Source: a virus
Length of the DNA: 37,861 nucleotides
Direction: 5' to 3' (one strand)
Virus record (IMG/VR): IMGVR_UViG_3300032325_000004
Location: 1 to 37,861 of that record
A program made the position numbers and the translations under genes. The notes beneath the pieces are model-generated. The model did not search any database and was not told the DNA's origin. It saw nothing but the letters and a program-made list of their open reading frames with translations. Below are positions 2,181-23,892 of this stretch, in pieces. Numbering within the stretch: the first letter of the stretch is position 1; the number at the start of each line of letters is the position of its first letter.

Positions 2181-2854
2181 ACCCAATAGCACCAGTTGAA
2201 AATACTAACGTAATTCGTTATGCGGATTTTGTACGCATTACAACTGGCTCTGCTGTCTACCTTTTTTCCACAGCACCTTACGACATTACTGTGCCAAGCA
2301 TTGATGCCTCGCCTTTTACAGGGTTAAGTCAGCTTGTAAAAGTAGGCTCTGCACAGCGAGACATTAAAAGCACAGCTAACGAAACCACAGTCACATTAGT
2401 TGGCATTGATACAGCTAACCTTGCATTGGTGCTTGGCGCAGACATTAAAGGTTCGCAAGTTGAAATGTGGCACGGCTTTTTTGATGCAAACAATGAACTA
2501 ATTACAAGTTCAAGTGTGGAGTGGGTTAACAACATTAACTTGGAAATACCTTGGACAAACACTACAGGCGACATTGTTGAATGGACAAGTTCAACAAGCG
2601 GGTCGGGTTTGTATCAATTTTTTAATGGTTACATAAATTCATTCAGCATTAGCGAACAATACATGGAAGAAGTGCGCGGCTATTTGGGAATCGTAACCAT
2701 TAGCGCATCAAGCATCCAGCTAATCTTGCAAAACAGAACAGCAGGCAGATACACAAACAATCCATCATGGACTTTTTGGAATGCTTTAGATAACAGCATG
2801 AACAGGGTTAACTACATACAGACAATTAACTATCAATTTGGAAAAACAAATTAG
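2177..2854 (+). CDS. Tail tip protein, DUF2163-like
   Basis: 225 residues. It resembles the first domain of the DUF2163/BR0599 tail-tip family: an N-terminal beta region describing a field-like DFVRITTG stretch, a middle segment KGSQVEMWHGFFDANNELI, and a C-terminal segment with ILQNRTAGRYTNNPS that matches the conserved R.AGR element of that family. These proteins sit between distal tail protein and central hub and help form the tail tip. GAGG at 2165-2168 is the ribosome binding site; the start overlaps the upstream stop as ATGA. Family assignment is from memory of the motif and gene order. Confidence 0.6.
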   Translation: MNPIAPVENTNVIRYADFVRITTGSAVYLFSTAPYDITVPSIDASPFTGLSQLVKVGSAQRDIKSTANETTVTLVGIDTANLALVLGADIKGSQVEMWHGFFDANNELITSSSVEWVNNINLEIPWTNTTGDIVEWTSSTSGSGLYQFFNGYINSFSISEQYMEEVRGYLGIVTISASSIQLILQNRTAGRYTNNPSWTFWNALDNSMNRVNYIQTINYQFGKTN

Positions 2855-2864
2855 GATGGACTAC

Positions 2865-3311
2865 ATGATAAGACAGGCAAACAAATTTGATATTGAGGCA
2901 ATTGTTCGAATGCTTAAAAGCTATCGTGAACAAGCGCCAACGCAGTTTCTTAAAGACGCAAACAGCCGCGAGCATATAGACAAAATGCTAGGCAATATCT
3001 TGGCTGGCGCAGGCTTTATATTAATTGCTGAAAAAGATGACGAAACAGTTGGAATGGTCATTGCCGCACAACACCCAAACATTTGGAATCCTGCGATAAG
3101 CCAAGTCAGCGAGATTGCTTTTTGGTTAGATGAAGCGCACCGAGGTGGCAAGCTGGCGCATCGGCTTTTGCATGGCTACATTCAGCAATGTGAAGAATGG
3201 AAGCAAGAAAACCGCATTCAATTTTTTGCAATCAGTAAAATGGTAAACAGTCCCGACTTGTCATATGAAAAGTTCGGTTTTGAAAAGTTAGAAGAAACTT
3301 GGATTAAGTAA
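2865..3311 (+). CDS. GNAT-family N-acetyltransferase in tail module
   Basis: 148 residues from the ATG at 2865, chosen because AGGA (2853-2856) is 8 bases upstream and the product begins MIRQANKFDIEAI, the usual beta1-alpha1 start of GNAT enzymes. An in-frame ATG at 2856 is possible. The central strand FILIAEKDDETVGMVIA, then VSEIAFWLDEAHRGGKLAHRL, give a GNAT core with an acetyl-CoA-binding turn (R.GGKLA), and the end YEKFGFEKLEETWIK is the classic C-terminal GNAT motif. It would transfer an acyl group from acyl-CoA to an amine; the substrate is unknown. It lies between two tail-tip genes. Confidence 0.8.
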   Translation: MIRQANKFDIEAIVRMLKSYREQAPTQFLKDANSREHIDKMLGNILAGAGFILIAEKDDETVGMVIAAQHPNIWNPAISQVSEIAFWLDEAHRGGKLAHRLLHGYIQQCEEWKQENRIQFFAISKMVNSPDLSYEKFGFEKLEETWIK

Positions 3312-3313
3312 CC

Positions 3314-6300
3314 ATGCCCGGTTCAATAATTGCCGCCGCTTTATTTCCCGGTCTTACTGGGATTGCTTTAAGTGTTGTTAGCTTTGCTATCAATATGCTG
3401 GTGTCGTCAATTATTGCCAAAGCAGATTCGCCTGATTCAAACCAAAACAATACTAGGCAAGACCAACAAAACCCCGGCAGTCGCGTACAGATTCCACCAG
3501 CAGGCGACAATAAAATTCCTGTTGTTTATGGCTCTGCTTATGTAGGCGGCATCATTACTGATTTGTCTATTACTAGCGACAATCAAACTTTATATTATTG
3601 TTTGGCTTTATCTGAAGTCACAAACACTGAGGGCTTTATTGCTGGCGGCGCAGATGTAATTACTTTTGGCGATGTTTATTGGGGCGGCAAAAAAGTTGTT
3701 TTTAACGCCAATGGTTACGATGTGGATTCATTGCTTGATGAATCAACTGGTTTATCTGATACATCTGTAGCTGGTAAGTTGGCATTTTACTTTTACAACA
3801 ATGGTTCTTCTGCGCCTACAAACAGTGCGTTTCCTGCATTTTCAACGCAAGTTATGGGCAACAGCGCATTGACTTATCAGTGGACAAGCGCACAAGCAAT
3901 GACAAATTGTGCTTTTGCTATTGTAAAAATAACTTATAACCAAGACGCAAACCTAACAGGAATGCAAGTTACTAAGTTCCAAATTACAAATGCAAGAAAA
4001 GCCCCCGGCGATTGTTTCTTAGATTACTTTACTTCCGAACGCTACGGCGCGGCAATTCCTTACGCCAACATTGACACCGCAAGCCTTACAGCATTAAACA
4101 CATATTGCGCCGAACAAGTTGTGTACACACAATTTAGCGGCGGCACAGCTTTACAAGATAGATTTCAATTTAATGGGCAGTTAGAGACAACACAACCCAT
4201 CATGACTAATTTGCAACTCATGGCGACTTGCTGTGATTGCTTATTGCGTTACAACGAAATCATGGGGACTTGGGGCGTAATTGTCCAACAGCCTAGCTAT
4301 GCGGTGGCTATGCAGTTAAATGATTCCAACATCATTGGACCAATTAGCGTAACGCCTTTAGATATTGCTTCATCATTTAACATTGCAGAAGTTAAATTTC
4401 CTGACAACTCAGCGCAAGACAGTTTTAATTCAACCATTTATGATTTAGCTATTGTTGCGCCAGCACTGTTGTATCCAAATGAACCAGTTAACAAACAAAC
4501 AATTAACCTTGCTTTAGTTAACAACAGCGTATCGTCACAGCTTTTGGCAAATCGTTTGCTCAAAGCAGGGCGCGAAGATTTACAAGTGCAATGTGAAATT
4601 GGGTTTAGTGGTTTACAGCTTGAAGCTGGAGACATTGTTAGCTTAACTAACACCAATTATGGCTTTACAAATAAACTGTTTCGTATAAATAAAGTAATTG
4701 AAAACTTTACCGATAATGGACAAATCACAGCATCATTGACGCTTGCAGAATTTAATCAAACTGTTTATTCAGATATACCAGTAACCCAATTTACGCCATC
4801 ACCTAATACTGGTTTGCCTCAACCGCTTAACTTTGGTTCAATACCTACGCCAACAATTAGCACTTCATCACCTAACGCGGCAACACCATCATTTATTGTT
4901 AATGTAACTACGCCTGCGGGTGGTATTACTCAATACATGGAGGTGTGGTATTCGGCTTTTGCAAGCCCCACAAGCGACCAGCGTTTGCTTGCAGGCACTA
5001 CGGCAATACAAGCATCAGGCAATCCATACCCAACATCTACACCATTACAAGTTAGCCTGACTAACATTGCAAGTGGTAATTGGTATTTCTTTACTCGCGC
5101 GGTCAACAGTTTAGGCGCAAGCGCATATAGTTCTGCATCTGCTATATTTCAATGGCGACCAACTACCTTTAGTTATGATTTGCAATATATTGTTGTTGCT
5201 TATGCTAACAGCATTACAGGCACAGGCATATCATCATCGCCAAGTGGCAAAAGTTATTATGGACTTTACAACTCATCATCAACGGCATATAGCCCAGTTG
5301 CGGCAAACTACATATGGTTCTTGGCGCAACCTACATTTGGCACAACCTACAAACTTGCATATATAAATCGCGGTAGTCGCAGATTAAGTACAGCCACATC
5401 ACTTGCTGGATATGCTGGAACATCAGGCGCTTATGTTCCAACATCAGTTGGGTTTGATAGTTCGCAATGGTCTGCGTTAGCTGATGGAACAAACTATATT
5501 GATTTAGATGTCCGTACAGGACAACTTACAAAAGTAGGAACAGGTAGCGGCGGTATTGGTCAAATTGCTTTACAAAATAATCCTGATGGCACTATGGTTG
5601 GCTCACTTGCTCAGTTTTTAGATTTTGGTGGCGCTGGCACATATACCTCATCGGTTGCACAACTTACTATTGACATTTATGGTCGTGTGGTTGGAATTAT
5701 ACCTCCCGATTCTTTTTATTACACTTCACAAAATTTTACTGCAACAGCAAGCCAAACAGTATTTACGCCAACAGCAAGAGGCGCTGGATATATCACAGGC
5801 ATGGATTTGGTTTTTAAGAATGGCATTTTGCTAGACACAACAGAGTACACAGAAAATAATACAACTGTTACGCTAAACACTGCTTGTGTTGTTGGAGACA
5901 CAATAATTATTACGTCTATGCGGTCTGTAGCATCAAGTACGTTTTACCAAGATTGTGGAATTATTTATTCAAGCGGTACTGGCACAACAACTTTGACATA
6001 TACAAATTTGCCACATTTTGAAATTAGAAATGGTGACGTTTTAACTTTTGCAAATACAGGTACACCAACGCAATACACAGTTTCAAGCATTAATTATGTG
6101 ACAAAACAAATTGTTTTCACAGGCGCATTTACTGCAACGGCAGGCAATTCGGTTTATCGAAGAATTGCAAGCGGCGCTACCTATCGTTCATTTAGTAGAT
6201 TTACTGATGCGTTAACTGCGGCATCAAGCTATACGCCAACAAGATTTCAATTTGTCTCAGGTAGAGAGTTATTATTTTTAAATGGAACAATCGTAAACGA

Positions 6301-14879: not shown

Positions 14880-15845
14880 TTACGCTAAAAGCAATTCTTC
14901 AGCTTGTGACTTCATGCGGTTTCCATTGCCGAACCAAGCATTGTTCATGCGTGTATCAACATTGTGTCCGCGTTCATGGTCAACATACTGCGTAACAGCG
15001 TTCAGCAAGCCCCATTTAGTGCCGTAAACGCCATAATTGTTAGCACCCATACCAGCACCATCGAACAGTTCTAAAACACGCTTAAAACCGCGAGATTCTT
15101 TAAATGTGTTGGTCTGTGGGTTGTATGAGGCAGGAAACAATTCATTGCTGAAAGTTCGGGCATATTCGCTTGATACGCCTTGTCTTGCCAACCTGCGATA
15201 TTTGTCCATCATCCCATCAAAGCCGCCAACAATCAAACCCAAGCGGTCACGCATTAACGATTGGTCAAAATCAGAGCCATGAGTTAACACAACGCGACTG
15301 GGTGCGGCTTCTTGGTCTGCCATTGACAAAGTGTTATTGCACACAACGCGAATGCTGGTAAATTGTCCAATCGTTGCCGCTGTGCCATCAAATGATGTGC
15401 TTAACAGCAAGTAACCGCGCACGGCATCATCTTGCAAAACAACAGCTTCTTTATTAACGTTAGCCAATGCCCAAATGCGTTTGCCACCTTTGATAGCACC
15501 AGCAACTTCTAAAGTAAAACCTGCCGACTGTACAAGAGTATTGAAAAACTCAAGCACTTCTGCTGGCTGGTGAACTTTATAGCGGTCAGTCACAACGCCA
15601 AGCGGCTGGTTTGTGTCATCGCGATAGATAACTTTTTGGTTTTGCATTTCGGAATAGTTTTGTCCATCCCAAGTGAACATGATGGGCGACAGTTTTGCAG
15701 ACCAATCCAAGCCTGCTTCTTTGCGCCATACGTCAATGGGTGCATCTTGCGTTAACTGCTGACCAAGACCATGCCAAGGTGTTGCGTTTGCATATGCAAT
15801 TTCTGCTTTGCCTGTAATTGCGTTGTTTTCGATTAAGTGAGCCAT
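14880..15845 (-). CDS. DUF932 phage/plasmid-like protein
   Basis: 321 residues from the ATG at 15845 (AAAGGAATTGAAA upstream). It shows the DUF932 pattern: ATPWHGLGQQL near the start, YSEMQNQKVIYRDDTNQPLGVVTDRYKVHQPAEVLEFF, then SIRVVCNNTLSMA, and near the end YGTKWGLLNAVTQYVDHERG. DUF932 proteins are common beside recombination genes in phages and plasmids; a role in DNA recombination or protection is suspected but not settled. A 12-bp direct repeat (14872-14883 and 15863-15874) brackets the gene. Confidence 0.85.
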   Translation of the reverse strand: MAHLIENNAITGKAEIAYANATPWHGLGQQLTQDAPIDVWRKEAGLDWSAKLSPIMFTWDGQNYSEMQNQKVIYRDDTNQPLGVVTDRYKVHQPAEVLEFFNTLVQSAGFTLEVAGAIKGGKRIWALANVNKEAVVLQDDAVRGYLLLSTSFDGTAATIGQFTSIRVVCNNTLSMADQEAAPSRVVLTHGSDFDQSLMRDRLGLIVGGFDGMMDKYRRLARQGVSSEYARTFSNELFPASYNPQTNTFKESRGFKRVLELFDGAGMGANNYGVYGTKWGLLNAVTQYVDHERGHNVDTRMNNAWFGNGNRMKSQAEELLLA

Positions 15846-15923
15846 TTTCAATTCCTTTACATTGTTAAGTTTACACAAGACTGCTTCACAGCAGTTTCGC
15901 CGATTAACGGCTCATCAGTTGTG

Positions 15924-18738: not shown

Positions 18739-19143
18739 ATGGTTAAATTCACCGCAAGCATTGAAGCAAAGCAACCTGACCCTGTAATGGATTTCACAAT
18801 GTGTTTGCTTAACAGCGTAACTACTGGACACATTTTGCATTTGCAGACCCGCAGTTACAGTCAGCATATGGCACTTGGTGCGTTCTATGATGGCATTGGT
18901 GACCTTGTAGACGCATTTATTGAAGCATTCCAAGGCAAGTATGGTTTGCTTACAAAATACCCCACAACGGCTGTTTTAATGCCCGACATGAATCCAATAG
19001 ATTATTTGGAATATTTAAAAGAAGACGTGCAAACATTACGCAGAACAAACGGTTTTCCACAAGACAGCGAATTGCAAAACGAAGTTGACAACATTGCCAA
19101 CTTGATTAACAGCACATTATATAAATTAAGATATCTTGCTTAA
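18739..19143 (+). CDS. Ferritin-like/DUF5856-type protein
   Basis: 134 residues. The block TGHILHLQTRSYSQHMALGAFYDGIGDLVDAFIEAFQGKYGL resembles the Dps/ferritin-like four-helix proteins annotated as DUF5856 in phages. The histidines and acidic residues spaced along helices 1 and 2 could bind metal. A DNA-protection or metal-binding role is possible; neither is proven. It is preceded by an AAAAGGGG ribosome binding site and stands just before the ParB-like cassette. Confidence 0.6.
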   Translation: MVKFTASIEAKQPDPVMDFTMCLLNSVTTGHILHLQTRSYSQHMALGAFYDGIGDLVDAFIEAFQGKYGLLTKYPTTAVLMPDMNPIDYLEYLKEDVQTLRRTNGFPQDSELQNEVDNIANLINSTLYKLRYLA

Positions 19144-19157
19144 CAAAAGGACAATAC

Positions 19158-19706
19158 ATGACAGCACAAATCAAAATAGTTTACAAAAAAACTGCCGATT
19201 TAATTCCATACGCAAGAAACAGTAGAACGCATGATGAGGGGCAAATAGCCCAAATTGCCGCATCAATAAAAGAATTTGGATTTACAAATCCAATCTTAAT
19301 TGACGGAACAAACGGCATTATTGCTGGACATGGGCGCGTAATGGCGGCACAAAAACTTGGCGAAGAAAAAGTGCCAACCATTGAATTAAGTCACTTAACT
19401 GAAGGACAAAAACGAGCATACATAATTGCCGACAACAAATTGGCTTTGAATGCTGGTTGGGATATGGAAGTTTTAAAGTTTGAAATTTCGGAATTAAAGC
19501 CTGCTGAATTAGCGTTAACAGGATTTTCGGTTGGAGAATTAAAGAGTTGGTTTGGTGATGAGGAAAATGAAAGTTCAGATGCAGAAGAAATGGATTTGAA
19601 TGTTGGCTACGAAATCATTGTTGAATGCGATTCGGAATATGAACAACGGAAATTATTGGAAAAGTTAACTGAAGAAGGTTATAAATGCAAATCAATGCTA
19701 CGCTGA
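19158..19706 (+). CDS. ParB/Srx-fold nuclease-like protein
   Basis: 182 residues. DLIPYARNSRTHDEGQIAQIAASIKEFGFTNPILID and GIIAGHGRVMAAQKLGEEKVP are the hallmark motifs of the ParB/sulfiredoxin fold (nucleotide-binding GHGR), spanning residues 11-80. No methylase domain follows; instead there is an acidic linker and a C-terminal domain YEIIVECDSEYEQRKLLEKLTEEGYKC. In mobile elements such domains act as CTP/ATP-dependent DNA binders or nucleases. It overlaps the ABC-GNAT gene by 22 bases, so the two are likely co-translated. Confidence 0.8.
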   Translation: MTAQIKIVYKKTADLIPYARNSRTHDEGQIAQIAASIKEFGFTNPILIDGTNGIIAGHGRVMAAQKLGEEKVPTIELSHLTEGQKRAYIIADNKLALNAGWDMEVLKFEISELKPAELALTGFSVGELKSWFGDEENESSDAEEMDLNVGYEIIVECDSEYEQRKLLEKLTEEGYKCKSMLR

Positions 19707-20824
19707 AATCAAAGATAGTTCGCCAATCTCCAATAATTAGAACTGGTCGGGTTTTACAACTGGAGGGAATGTTTGACGTATCGCCAGCAGATACAAGCAA
19801 GTTAACTTGGGATGTTAGTTTGCCATTGCATGAGCATGATTGGAATGTTGGCTTAATAGTTGGACCATCAGGCTGTGGAAAATCAACGATTGCCAAAGAA
19901 TTGTTTGCCGATTCTTATGTGCATGGCTTTCAATGGGATGATTCCAAAGCATTGATTGATGGATTCCCTGACCACTTAAGCGTTAAGGATATTACTTTGA
20001 TGCTATCAAGCGTTGGATTTAGTTCACCGCCAAGTTGGTTAAGACCATTTGGAGTTTTGTCAAATGGTGAACAATTTAGAGCAACAATAGCAAGAGCATT
20101 GGTAGAAAAACCCGATTTGTGTGTAATTGATGAATTTACATCGGTGATTGATAGAACTGTTGCAAAGATTGGTTCAACAGCTATTGCCAAAACTGTAAGA
20201 CGCAACAAAGGAAAATTTATAGCCGTTAGCTGTCACTATGACATAGAGGAATGGTTAGACCCTGATTGGATTTATGAGCCTGCATTAAATAAATTTCAAT
20301 GGAGGTTGGTTCGGCGGCGACCACCAATCACAATCCAAATCTGTCGTATCCCGCATCAAACTTGGCAGTTATTTTCAAAGCATCACTATTTAACGGCATC
20401 ATTAAATCATTCTGCTGTTTGTTTTGGTGCGTTTGTTGATGGTCAACTTGTTGCCTTTGATGCTTGGTTGCCATTCGTTGGAAAACTTGCACATGGCAAA
20501 GCAAGGAGAGGTCATCGCACAGTTTGTTTGCCCGACTTCCAAGGCGTAGGAATAGGAAATGCTTTGTTTGAAAGAGTCGCATCAATGTGGCGAGGATTAG
20601 GATATCGTGCATTCTCAGGAACTGGGCATCCTGCGGAAATTGCAAAACGAATCAAATCACCAAATTGGAAAATGACAAAAGCACCAGCAAGACACGCCAA
20701 AGGCAATCACAATGTTGACAAGACAAGAGCAACAAACAGAATGGTTGCATCTTTTGAACATATTGGCAAACCAATGGATAGAACTGAAGCGCAAAAAATG
20801 CACGAATCATGGGCAAGCATATAA
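19685..20824 (+). CDS. ABC ATPase fused to GNAT acetyltransferase (COG2401-like)
   Basis: 379 residues in two parts. Residues about 20-205 are a soluble ABC ATPase: Walker A GPSGCGKST (60-68), signature LSNGEQFRATIARAL (125-139), Walker B LCVIDE (145-150) and the switch H184. There are no membrane helices, so it is not a transporter. Residues about 212-379 form a GNAT domain with acyl-CoA site QGVGIG (286-291) after RTVCLPDF. This architecture matches the COG2401 group (ABC ATPase fused to predicted acetyltransferase). The substrate is unknown; nucleic-acid or protein acylation driven by ATP is an inference. AAGG precedes the start. Confidence 0.85.
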   Translation: MQINATLKSKIVRQSPIIRTGRVLQLEGMFDVSPADTSKLTWDVSLPLHEHDWNVGLIVGPSGCGKSTIAKELFADSYVHGFQWDDSKALIDGFPDHLSVKDITLMLSSVGFSSPPSWLRPFGVLSNGEQFRATIARALVEKPDLCVIDEFTSVIDRTVAKIGSTAIAKTVRRNKGKFIAVSCHYDIEEWLDPDWIYEPALNKFQWRLVRRRPPITIQICRIPHQTWQLFSKHHYLTASLNHSAVCFGAFVDGQLVAFDAWLPFVGKLAHGKARRGHRTVCLPDFQGVGIGNALFERVASMWRGLGYRAFSGTGHPAEIAKRIKSPNWKMTKAPARHAKGNHNVDKTRATNRMVASFEHIGKPMDRTEAQKMHESWASI

Positions 20825-21207
20825 ATCCAGTATGGCTTGCACAATATTTTGGCTTTGATTTAATTGATTACAAGCGATGGGGCGATGGTGTGTTGATTGC
20901 ATCAGGCTGTGGAATCATGATGAGCATTATGGATGCTGTGCCACGTTTCCAATACTGCATTGATGTTGATTCATTTAGAGAACATCACAATAGACTGCCA
21001 CAATTGTTAAGCGCATTAGATAAGAATTGTGGTTTTAAAATAATTGGTATTGCTGGATGGTTTAGTCTTGACAAGCCTGATATGTTAAGAGATGGGCAAC
21101 AGCGAATAGCAAACGCACAATGCGTTACTTACTCAGGCGGTTATGCCGCATTTCAAAATGAAGCGCAAACACTCAACCAATTTATACAACAAGCAAATGA
21201 TTGTTAA
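20809..21207 (+). CDS. Third gene of ParB / ABC-GNAT cassette (unknown)
   Basis: 132 residues overlapping the ABC-GNAT gene by 16 bases. Compact alpha/beta sequence: VWLAQYFGFDLIDYKRWGDG, IASGCGIMMSIMDAVPRFQYCIDVDS, HHNRLPQLLSALD. The sequence VDSFREHHNRLP could supply His/Asp ligands, but no known catalytic signature is evident. Tight overlap indicates it works with the upstream enzyme. It could be a substrate-binding or accessory component. Confidence 0.65.
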   Translation: MGKHINPVWLAQYFGFDLIDYKRWGDGVLIASGCGIMMSIMDAVPRFQYCIDVDSFREHHNRLPQLLSALDKNCGFKIIGIAGWFSLDKPDMLRDGQQRIANAQCVTYSGGYAAFQNEAQTLNQFIQQANDC

Positions 21208-21210
21208 GTT

Positions 21211-21654
21211 ATGCCATATGCACCATTCAACAAGGTATGCAGGGAACTAGGATGCAAGAACACAAGAAGCAAACTTAACAGCTTTTGTTTAGAACATGGT
21301 GGCTTGCAACACGCTAACGAGGGCAAGGATAACGCATATAGCAATCCAGCTTGGCGCACGATAAGACGCGCACAGTTAAGCAAACAACCCTTGTGTCAGT
21401 CCTGCTTAACGCAAGGGCATATAGCACCAGCATTGCACGTTGACCATGTATTCCCTTGGCGACAGATAAGCGAGCAAGCATTCTTGCATAACATCTTCCA
21501 AAGCCTGTGCCATGAATGCCATAGTCACAAGACCGCACAAGAGCGTAAAGGCATCTTTGAGCATTACACCCAAGACGGAATAAAAAACCTCACTAAAGGC
21601 GACTACAGCTATTCCATGAGCCAATTCCACGGCGGCAAAAGTTTAGAAACTTAA
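21211..21654 (+). CDS. HNH endonuclease
   Basis: 147 residues. CQSCLTQG, then ALHVDHVFPWRQISEQAFLHNIFQSLCHECHSHKT form a zinc-supported HNH site: C62/C65 and C100/C103 for structure, DH (78-79), N94 and H105 for catalysis. HNH proteins immediately before the terminase genes are common in HK97-like phages and are needed for cos cleavage in several of them. Gap of 3 bases from the preceding gene. Confidence 0.9.
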   Translation: MPYAPFNKVCRELGCKNTRSKLNSFCLEHGGLQHANEGKDNAYSNPAWRTIRRAQLSKQPLCQSCLTQGHIAPALHVDHVFPWRQISEQAFLHNIFQSLCHECHSHKTAQERKGIFEHYTQDGIKNLTKGDYSYSMSQFHGGKSLET

Positions 21655-21664
21655 ATATTGACGA

Positions 21665-21767
21665 GTTAAGTAGAAGCAAGCGCGCACCCAATTACGCAAA
21701 ATTTGGATTGTTAATGTGGGTACTTAACAAATTTTTTGGTATCATGCGGCAATTATAACTTAACAAA
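21665..21767. repeat. Repeat-rich intergenic site before terminase (candidate packaging/control site)
   Basis: GTTAAGTA (21665-21672) and TACTTAAC (21721-21728) form an inverted repeat. An inner ACCCA (21686-21690) pairs with TGGGT just before the right arm, so TGGGTACTTAAC is matched by the left arm split by 14 bases. ACTTAACAAA also occurs twice (21722-21731 and 21758-21767), 36 bases apart. This stretch, between the HNH and small terminase genes, is the usual place for cos or terminase-binding sites. Confidence 0.5.
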
Positions 21768-21775
21768 ACAAAAAA

Positions 21776-22234
21776 ATGACCAACCGATTACCCCCCGAAT
21801 TGCATTTAGTTCATGGCACAAAGCAAGGTCACGCAGGCGGCACTTTGCCTGAAAAGTTACGCGCAAGAGTTCCAAAGGCTGAATGGCTGGACAACCCTGA
21901 CGCATGGGACAGGGACAAATTTATCCAAGAAACCTCCGACTTTCTTTGGGAAACCTATGGGATTGGAAGCAATCAAGACAAGCACGTTTTGGCGGCACTT
22001 GCCAATCAGATGGACATTTACATTAAGTGTATGAAAGGCGTAGCCAAGGGCGGCATCATTACGCAATTTAACGCTGGTCAAACAGTCGGACCAAATCCCT
22101 TTTTGACTGCTGGCGACAAAGCATTAAGCCGTGCGGTTGCATTGATGAATGAACTGGGCTTAACACCGCGAGGTCGCTTGGCTACAAATAAAACCGAGGG
22201 CGGCAAATACAGCAAGCTACTAAACGGACCATGA
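21776..22234 (+). CDS. terS: Terminase small subunit, P27 family
   Basis: 152 residues. The C-terminal segment TVGPNPFLTAGDKALSRAVALMNELGLTPRGR is the conserved core of the P27 small-terminase family. The N-terminal PELHLVHGTKQGHAG is also typical. It recognises the phage genome and hands it to the large subunit for packaging. The repeats just upstream may be its target. Overlaps the large terminase start by 4 bases. Confidence 0.9.
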   Translation: MTNRLPPELHLVHGTKQGHAGGTLPEKLRARVPKAEWLDNPDAWDRDKFIQETSDFLWETYGIGSNQDKHVLAALANQMDIYIKCMKGVAKGGIITQFNAGQTVGPNPFLTAGDKALSRAVALMNELGLTPRGRLATNKTEGGKYSKLLNGP

Positions 22235-23892
22235 CCTACGAAGATGGCATCCTGTATGCGGTGCGTGTGGCAAAGGGAGAGTTAACAGTTAGCCGTAATG
22301 TGCGGCTTGCTTGTCAACGCTTTTTAAATCAGCTTGAAGAAAGAGCATGGGGTTATGAATTCCATGTTGACTATGTAACGCATTTCCTTGAGTTTGCCAA
22401 AACGCTTGTTCACACAAAAGGACCTGACGCTGGCAAGCCATTGATGCTTGAGCCATTCCAAATATTTATCATTTGCGCCATCTACGGATTCAGAAGCAAA
22501 AAAGATGTGAGCAAGCGCATGGTCACGGATGTAATTGTGTTTATTCCGCGCAAAGCGGGTAAGTCAACGCTGACCGCTGTTATTGCGTTATACGAACTAA
22601 AGTGGGGTGAAGCTGGCGCAGAGGTTTACACCTTGGCGACCACACGCGAACAAGCAAGCATTGTTTTTGATGCCGCTAAAGGTTTTGTGGAAAATATGCC
22701 ACACGATGTAGCACAACTTTTTATTGTGCATCGCAACCAAATTACTGTTGCTGGCGACAGTCAAACAAAGTTTAAAGCGTTAAGCAGAGACACAAAAAAG
22801 ACAGGCGATGGCATGAACCCATCTTGCGCCATCATTGATGAGGCGGCGCAAATTGTGGACAGAAACGCAATTGAAGTGTTGCATTCAGGCATGGTGGCAC
22901 GGCAAAACCCTTTGCGTATCTACATAACAACGGCATCCTTTACCAAGGAAACCAAGTTTTATGAAGATATGCAGATGCTGGAAAATATGCTTAACGGCGA
23001 AGCAGAAGACAATCCAAGATGGTTTGGTTTGCTGTACAGCTTAGACCCACAAGACGATTGGCGAGACCCTAAGATATGGGCTAAAGCTAATCCTATGCAC
23101 GGCATCAGCGTGTATGAAGATGCAATAGCGGAAAGAGCAGAACAGGCAAAGCATAAGCCAGCGGCGCTAAATGAATTTCTATGCAAAACACTTAACATTT
23201 ATGTTAGCGCAAACTCTGCTTGGCTTGACCGCGCATATTGGGATGATGACAAGGCATTTATAAAAACACAACGAGAACCCGAAGCGGTTTTTATAGGCTT
23301 TGACTTGGCGGCTACGCGAGATTTAAATGCAGTTTGTACGCTGAAACGCTTTGCGGAAAATGACTTTGAAGCAGAGTTCAAATTCTTTTTGCCCGAAGAA
23401 GGCTTGGCACTTGTGCCTAAACATTACAGCGATATTTTTCGCGTAGCTGTTAACTCAGGCATCTTACATATTACCGAGGGCAACGTAATGGATGACCGCG
23501 AGATAAGCGACTACATCATTGGGCAAGCCCAAAAATATGACGTTAAGGAAATTGGCTTTGATGCCTACAATGCCGCAAGTTTGGTTGCACGATTGCACGA
23601 AGCTGGCTTGCCTGTTAAGAAAGTTGGGCAAGGCATGGCGGTGTTAAGTAATCCAAGCAAGCAAGTTGAAAAGTTAATTATGAATTACGGCATCAAGCAT
23701 GATGGCAACCCATTTGTGGGATGGCAACTTGGCAACTGTGAGGTTTATGTAGATGTAAATGGAAATGTAAAAGTTCGTAAAAATGAAAATGACAAAAGTG
23801 CAAAAGTTGATGGCATAATCGCACTTATCATCGCTACGCATTGTTCTTTGGACAACCCGACAATGAGTGGCTTTGGTTTCCGAACTTTCTAA
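22231..23892 (+). CDS. terL: Terminase large subunit, HK97-like
   Basis: 553 residues. ATPase domain: Walker A-like IPRKAGKST (105-113), Walker B CAIIDE (199-204), and coupling motif ITTAS. Nuclease domain: GFDLAATRD with D358, then EIGFDAYNA and a terminal DGIIALIIA supplying further acidic residues. It translocates DNA into the prohead and cuts it. The best ORF for phylogenetic placement of this phage. Confidence 0.95.
   Translation: MTYEDGILYAVRVAKGELTVSRNVRLACQRFLNQLEERAWGYEFHVDYVTHFLEFAKTLVHTKGPDAGKPLMLEPFQIFIICAIYGFRSKKDVSKRMVTDVIVFIPRKAGKSTLTAVIALYELKWGEAGAEVYTLATTREQASIVFDAAKGFVENMPHDVAQLFIVHRNQITVAGDSQTKFKALSRDTKKTGDGMNPSCAIIDEAAQIVDRNAIEVLHSGMVARQNPLRIYITTASFTKETKFYEDMQMLENMLNGEAEDNPRWFGLLYSLDPQDDWRDPKIWAKANPMHGISVYEDAIAERAEQAKHKPAALNEFLCKTLNIYVSANSAWLDRAYWDDDKAFIKTQREPEAVFIGFDLAATRDLNAVCTLKRFAENDFEAEFKFFLPEEGLALVPKHYSDIFRVAVNSGILHITEGNVMDDREISDYIIGQAQKYDVKEIGFDAYNAASLVARLHEAGLPVKKVGQGMAVLSNPSKQVEKLIMNYGIKHDGNPFVGWQLGNCEVYVDVNGNVKVRKNENDKSAKVDGIIALIIATHCSLDNPTMSGFGFRTF

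Follow-up and report, generated by a model that had tools for sequence, protein, structure and literature searches.

An ABC-coupled GNAT system was reportedly predicted by Iyer, Aravind and colleagues in 2013 (NAR 41:7635). The available part of a 2021 article predicts that ABC-ATPase-coupled GNATs place an uncharacterised acyl modification on a DNA base, with the Tenacibaculum phage pT24 as an example, and lists Mom as a DNA-modification enzyme of the GNAT superfamily (PMC7824862). Here we analyse a 37.9-kb IMG/VR virus record (37,861 nt; the whole stretch is called the window), which carries a cassette of three overlapping genes. They encode a ParB/Srx-fold protein (ParB), an ABC ATPase joined to a GNAT domain (ABC-GNAT) and a third protein. 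The cassette is most likely a ParB-docked, ATP-dependent DNA-acylation module.

The ABC-GNAT of pT24 has the same domain pair as the window protein and matches it with 85% coverage and 36% identity (tblastn). The role proposed here, acyl modification of a DNA base, is also that of the published prediction. Since DNA acylation by ABC-GNAT is already in print in the available part of the 2021 article, the core idea is not new (PMC7824862). That part contains no ParB head/tail scheme, no exchange with Mom or glycosyltransferases at the same site, no CoA-ligase-like protein and no ASCH link. New here are the exchange of partners on the ParB, the head/tail scheme, the fold of the third protein and the ASCH link, although the 2013 prediction may describe some of these and hold priority for them. 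Our literature search found no experimental study of ABC-GNAT and no account of a ParB head/tail exchange.

Other known systems are also close to this locus. Mu Mom (PF25680; structure 8bv8) belongs to the GNAT superfamily, but it has no ATPase and its conserved residues differ from those in the GNAT half of ABC-GNAT. Phage fusions of ParB with a DNA methylase (phrog_498) have a homologous ParB head (E 3e-49) and the same place near the terminase genes; in these the methylase effector is fused in frame, whereas the window has a separate ABC-GNAT gene.

The ABC-GNAT protein is linked to a ParB protein

The open reading frame list confirms the three overlapping genes of the original prediction, all on the plus strand: ParB at 19158-19706 (182 aa), ABC-GNAT at 19685-20824 (379 aa) and the third gene at 20809-21207 (132 aa). 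The overlaps are 22 bp (19685-19706) and 16 bp (20809-20824).

The second gene had been described as an ABC ATPase joined to a GNAT, which the profiles bear out. It matches ABC_tran (E 1.3e-9) and, weakly, the GNAT family Acetyltransf_7 (E 0.005) in Pfam, and it belongs over its full length to the unnamed phrog_11143 (E 5e-104). The ABC half covers approximately residues 1-212 (19685-20320, plus strand), as judged by Pfam, structure model, structure match and conservation. The GNAT half covers approximately residues 213-379 (20321-20824, plus strand), delimited by Pfam, model and conservation. In the ABC half Walker A (G56..GK66), the signature LSxG (125-128), Walker B (DE 149-150) and the H-loop (H184) are intact, and so are HY 234-235, R278 and PDxQGxG 283-289 in the GNAT half. 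The catalytic motifs are thus intact as claimed. Across 168 dereplicated relatives almost every one of these positions is invariant (for GNAT H234, Y235, R278, P283 and G287), which suggests selection for both activities. The structure model of the protein (predicted local distance difference test score, pLDDT, 88.8) has in its first half an ABC nucleotide-binding domain with Z scores of approximately 16 to MalK and MJ0796. For the GNAT half, sequence searches gave weak matches to generic GNAT profiles. The modelled half has the GNAT fold and appears to be about equally near generic GNATs and Mom. Matches of the model in BFVD include viral acetyltransferases and a Mom (rank 48, E 2.3e-4); a single Mom at this rank among other GNATs proves nothing.

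The first gene was predicted to encode a ParB/Srx fold, and this is confirmed by a match to phrog_620 (E 1.4e-53) and by a profile of 19 relatives, which matches Noc, Spo0J and ParB structures with a best E of 4e-14. The match to Pfam ParB_N (E 1.4e-5, 25.4 bits) is slightly below the cut-off of 26.3. NTPase and nuclease activities are reported for other ParB/Srx members in the available text of PMC5512222.

The ABC-GNAT family is represented in 81 annotated phage records (tblastn), in 468 stretches from bacterial genomes and in no fewer than 597 viral ones. Eighty of the genome stretches were kept, mostly from Planctomycetes, but also from Actinomycetes, Endozoicomonas and others. The named neighbours of the gene in the window are phage genes. 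No more than 1.5 kb away and in the same orientation, a ParB gene is present in 148 of 155 viral loci (the rest being four contig ends, one fusion and two loci without ParB), in 71 of 80 genome loci (three ends, two fusions, four without) and in seven of nine annotated-phage loci; these are linkage counts and not a blind test, because all 19 ParBs used to build the ParB profile belong to the window or to the loci gathered. The predicted co-occurrence of ParB and ABC-GNAT is therefore near universal. The 22-bp overlap is the commonest arrangement of the two genes (83 of 148 viral, 23 of 71 genome and four of seven phage loci), also in Firmicutes phages, and its conservation far exceeds chance. 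Of 92 readable viral loci, 67 have a gene for the large terminase subunit (TerL) within six genes of ABC-GNAT, as do 24 of 52 readable genome loci. Dereplication left 176 ABC-GNAT loci, of which the crude gene caller lost 23 to long antisense reading frames, leaving 153.

ABC and GNAT are encoded by separate genes in Firmicutes phages (P335, Oenococcus unk162, MismyG), and ParB, ABC and GNAT are joined in one chain in three loci (L017, L136, L173). Split genes, ABC-GNAT and the ParB-ABC-GNAT fusion are thus three states of one functional unit, which ParB and ABC-GNAT form, sometimes as a single polypeptide. Laboratory phage isolates with the unit include Lactococcus phage P335 (Orf23-25), Rhodococcus phage Jace, Arthrobacter phage EastWest and Gordonia phage Sisko.

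In three Gimesia-type planctomycete genomes (L098, L101, L102) two genes after ABC-GNAT lie on the opposite strand; one belongs to a PIG-L de-N-acetylase cluster and the other to a glucosamine-isomerase-like cluster, a single member of each cluster having been scanned. These neighbours may only be the flank of an insertion site.

Other enzymes occupy the same position on the ParB

A second survey started from ParB alone and covered the best 80 of at least 593 loci. The partner is ABC-GNAT in 21 loci, an N6/N4 methylase in 24 and Mom, which there holds the place of ABC-GNAT, in 12. C5 methylases and TGT-like proteins were found in four loci each, TET-associated glycosyltransferases (TAGT) or glucosyltransferases in three, His-phosphatase/cytidylyltransferases in two, and a D12 methylase and a PAPS-reductase-like protein in one each. 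The remainder consists of one cupin, two unknown partners, one locus without a partner (HNH next) and four contig ends. Altogether, 51 of the 55 readable partners other than ABC-GNAT belong to a DNA-modification family or are accessories of one. The genes upstream of the same ParBs served as control: none of 68 belongs to such a family, while one matched a generic methyltransferase and one possibly a generic acetyltransferase. With one upstream match counted, the difference has a Fisher p of approximately 1e-28, although upstream proteins are generally shorter than the downstream ones and so have a lower chance of a Pfam match. Dereplication at 90% leaves 60 survey loci with the same picture (15 ABC-GNAT, 16 N6/N4 methylases, 11 Mom). 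Since relatives have known DNA modifiers, Mom included, on the same ParB at the same position in the genome, the DNA-modification reading gains strong comparative support.

Close relatives of the window virus give examples of this exchange. Phages with a TerL 76-89% identical to that of the window carry other enzymes on the same ParB. The relative with the most similar of these (L259, 89%) has at 3371-5949, at the place of the cassette, a ParB (261 aa), a His-phosphatase/cytidylyltransferase and a TAGT, a candidate for sugar modification of DNA. At the same place another (L272, 84%; 2805-5530) encodes a ParB, a PAPS-reductase-like PP-loop protein, a second ParB and a further gene, a possible sulfur-based DNA modification. 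N6/N4 methylases sit on the same ParB in L281 (81%), L289 and L292, and ParB with ABC-GNAT as in the window was found in L283 (81%), L295 and L296. Upstream sequence was present in 26 of the 80 loci gathered by TerL. Four of these have ABC-GNAT, nine have ParBs of 380-450 aa (three were scanned, all N6/N4 methylases), two have a TAGT without ParB in view (L322 alone scanned), and one each has ParB with the sugar genes, ParB with the PAPS-reductase-like gene and ParB alone; eight contain nothing recognisable.

The TGT-like partners (L342, L344, L346, L350) are proteins of approximately 290 aa (194 aa in L350) that follow the ParB; L342 alone was scanned and matches the queuine tRNA-ribosyltransferase profile phrog_887, and the other three were assigned by BLAST cluster. 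They possibly carry out a deazaguanine DNA modification. The partner in L376 matches TAGT weakly (E 0.0026) and phrog_842. Two loci (L388:4496-5440 and L389:880-1824) encode a 315-aa ParB partner; the one from L388 was scanned and has no match in Pfam, PHROGs or NCBIfam. By its position it is a candidate for a new DNA-modifying enzyme.

Head and tail of the ParB protein

The ParB/Srx-fold head covers approximately residues 1-137 (19158-19568, plus strand; the boundary, taken from profile matches, relative pairs and the head tree, is approximate). It is followed by a C-terminal tail of approximately 45 residues (19569-19706, plus strand), whose last codons form the overlap with the ABC-GNAT gene. 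A hidden Markov model (HMM) of the tail was trained on the C-terminal 45 residues of ABC-GNAT-linked ParBs that are not in the survey set. It recognises 21 of 21 ABC-GNAT-linked survey ParBs and none of the 59 other survey ParBs. Over the gathered loci it recognises 226 of 227 ABC-GNAT-linked ParBs, a number that includes the training rows. The other partners come with other tails: a CPxC zinc ribbon is present in ten of the 12 Mom-linked ParBs, a further difference between Mom and ABC-GNAT, and in four of four ParBs linked to C5 methylases.

A tree of the heads alone requires 28 partner changes, the minimum being seven, and its strongly supported branches force four changes each for methylase and Mom. 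Heads that are up to 92% identical bear different tails and enzymes. An ABC-GNAT locus (L338) and a methylase locus (L401) share 146 of 158 head residues, and their DNA identity per 60 bases drops from 0.73-0.93 in the head to 0.18 at the tail. The ParB thus consists of a constant head and a partner-specific tail, and we infer that the tail is the docking piece for the enzyme.

The third protein has the fold of a CoA-ligase domain

The third gene (20809-21207, plus strand) was described as unknown, which holds at the sequence level: no family was found in Pfam, PHROGs or PADLOC, and a marginal NCBIfam match (E 0.07) was judged to be noise. Its structure model (pLDDT 90.9) resembles the C-terminal CoA-ligase domain of the succinyl-CoA synthetase beta subunit (Foldseek E 3e-5; VIA Z 12.8, root-mean-square deviation 2.9, 125 of 132 residues aligned), and the first 16 rows of the VIA list are such beta subunits. 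The match is limited to beta residues 239-384. The ATP-grasp domain is absent, as is an alpha subunit, and the protein is therefore not a complete enzyme but a stand-alone domain. By hhalign the similarity to the CoA-ligase profile is weak (P 0.003, in register with the structures, against P 0.13-0.51 for four unrelated profiles used as controls). In the same register SGxGLMMSxMD of the third protein aligns with NGAGLAMGTMD, a GxGLxMxxMD-like motif. A second motif of the beta subunit reads GGI; at its place third proteins have GWF or GWY.

A scan for the third-gene family gave 20 viral loci. All 20 have ABC-GNAT upstream, and ParB is present in 19, the last being cut by a contig end; annotated phages gave no match. 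The third protein therefore belongs to the ABC-GNAT system as an accessory partner. Conserved linkage of all three genes, as put forward in the original prediction, holds in these loci, but they are a minority of ABC-GNAT loci. A domain of a CoA enzyme beside a CoA-dependent acyltransferase suggests that the third protein may handle the acyl donor.

ASCH proteins accompany ABC-GNAT

An ASCH gene, mostly convergent, lies within 3.5 kb in 32 of 263 ABC-GNAT loci (29 of 176 after dereplication), in phages as well as in bacteria of many phyla; the window has no ASCH gene. None of 59 loci with other ParB partners has one (Fisher p 0.0014, a rough value because the loci are not independent samples). 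PIN/GNAT-EVE operons, for which DNA-base acetylation is proposed, nearly all encode an ASCH protein according to the available part of the report, which supports a general link between ASCH and GNAT (PMC7641849). The ASCH protein YqfB of E. coli hydrolyses N4-acylcytidines with the triad Lys21-Thr24-Glu74, as given in the available text (PMC6972931). The lysine is kept in the ASCH partners, but Glu stands at the place of Thr24 in 20 of 20 aligned sequences. A YqfB-type deacylase role is not supported, as the nucleophile is absent. The companion is possibly a reader.

A proposed DNA-acylation module and its alternatives

Taken together, the cassette is probably a phage-borne, exchangeable DNA-modification cassette. 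In the proposed mechanism the ParB head would bind phage DNA, perhaps in an NTP-dependent manner, and the tail would recruit ABC-GNAT. ATP binding would drive dimerisation of the ABC halves, so that DNA is positioned or opened for access to a base. The GNAT half would then move an acyl group from acyl-CoA onto a DNA base, at the exocyclic amine (N6 of adenine or N4 of cytosine). Like Mu's Mom, according to its annotation, it would do so close to packaging. Where present, the third protein might select, supply or hand over acyl-CoA, possibly pairing with a host SucD-type subunit. The acyl mark would protect virion DNA from restriction.

Several points weigh against this proposal. GNATs often acylate proteins, RNA is a further target of TGT and ASCH domains, and guilt by association gives the class of process, not the substrate. 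Two of the nine annotated phages, VmeM-32 and P12024S, have ABC-GNAT and no detectable ParB, so ParB is not strictly required. In the head tree, strong support is limited to 11 of 72 branches, which force only one change for ABC-GNAT. The third gene forms a cluster of eight among the 153 dereplicated loci. The Methylophilaceae phage P19250A, whose TerL is the most similar among phage isolates (71% identity), has the flanking genes but lacks the cassette, which is therefore dispensable. Finally, sequence profiles show no special kinship of the GNAT half to Mom, the precedent named in the original argument: hhalign of the GNAT and Mom profiles gave no signal (P 0.39), Mom is absent from the 25 of 28 Pfam matches listed for the window (last listed E 0.21), and by these comparisons the GNAT half is not a member of the Mom family.

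A first alternative places the acylation by the GNAT half on a host protein, such as a defence factor or RNA polymerase, with ParB as a separate, co-travelling nuclease or NTPase. The part of the 2021 article at hand names Rac as a case of a phage GNAT that acts on host proteins (PMC7824862). The nearness of the GNAT half to generic GNATs, by fold as much as to Mom and weakly by sequence, also fits. However, the ParBs of this family pair almost only with DNA-modifying enzymes, and the ABC-GNAT-specific tail argues for a physical complex, which makes this alternative unlikely. Of the two targets originally considered, DNA is thus supported by the near-universal ParB linkage and by known DNA modifiers at the same place, whereas a host factor has no contextual support.

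A second alternative is an RNA substrate, with an ATP-driven cytidine or tRNA acetyltransferase similar to TmcA/NAT10 and ASCH as its reader or hydrolase. TmcA-type enzymes, reportedly described by Ikeuchi (2008) and Ito (2014), likewise join an ATPase to a GNAT within one protein, and the ASCH genes recall the hydrolysis of N4-acylcytidines by YqfB. TmcA and NAT10 act on RNA with a helicase-type ATPase, though, and that of ABC-GNAT is of the ABC type. The GNAT half has no significant profile match to them, NAT10 chains appearing weakly among other GNATs (E 0.18-0.19). The missing Thr24, the window without ASCH and the replacement of ABC-GNAT by DNA methylases on the same ParB likewise point away from RNA, and we regard this possibility as quite improbable. 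Least probable by our estimate is that the target of the cassette is competing or host DNA, which it would modify or attack (host takeover or superinfection exclusion, with ParB as nicking nuclease and the GNAT mark as self label): cereus Bce_0392 and Mom domains of jumbo phages fused to nucleases offer parallels in the available parts of two articles (cited in PMC5512222; PMC7824862), but the ParB/ABC-GNAT unit has no restriction-type nuclease, and the flanking HNH genes remain in relatives without the cassette or with another one.

The ParB-docked DNA-acylation module can be extended to a wider scheme, which is tentative and, as a whole, doubtful. One ParB/Srx head would be a universal socket for at least seven tail-plus-enzyme chemistries swapped by recombination, and ABC-GNAT, with a CoA-ligase-like helper for donor supply and an ASCH companion as reader or eraser, would write a new, non-Mom N-acyl base (for example of the succinyl or acetyl type on adenine or cytosine).

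If the DNA-acylation module is real, a family that hundreds of phages and prophages encode, and that is often labelled transporter or hypothetical, becomes a defined class of DNA writers. With a constant ParB head and enzyme-specific tails, further modification enzymes could be found from what comes after the head, and the pairing of tail and enzyme would be a concrete interaction. To restriction enzymes, sequencers and defence systems, phage DNA with an acylated base would look unusual. Within the literature searched, the CoA-ligase-like helper would give the first sign that a phage has a protein dedicated to the acyl donor of a DNA mark.

Genomic surroundings of the cassette

The cassette is located between a DUF5856 gene (18739-19143, plus strand), an upstream flank conserved in related phages, and an HNH endonuclease gene (21211-21654, plus strand), the conserved downstream flank; neither was counted as a component. 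The genes for the small and large terminase subunits (21776-23892, plus strand) follow directly downstream. Megablast of the first 24 kb of the window gave no match in annotated phages. Scans of the window with Rfam and for tRNAs had no match, and promoter and terminator scans, whose counts did not exceed shuffled expectation, were not used.

More than 30 related contigs begin approximately 500-600 bases upstream of TerL, and many open alike (roughly CCAATnnncGCAAA ... GGGGGG). This opening resembles window bases near 21685 (21680-21700). The shared start is likely a cos-type genome end, in which case the linear genome would have the cassette at its right end. On the minus strand of the window, positions 14880-15878 encode a DUF932-type protein according to the annotation of its relatives; 442 annotated phage records contain matches to it.

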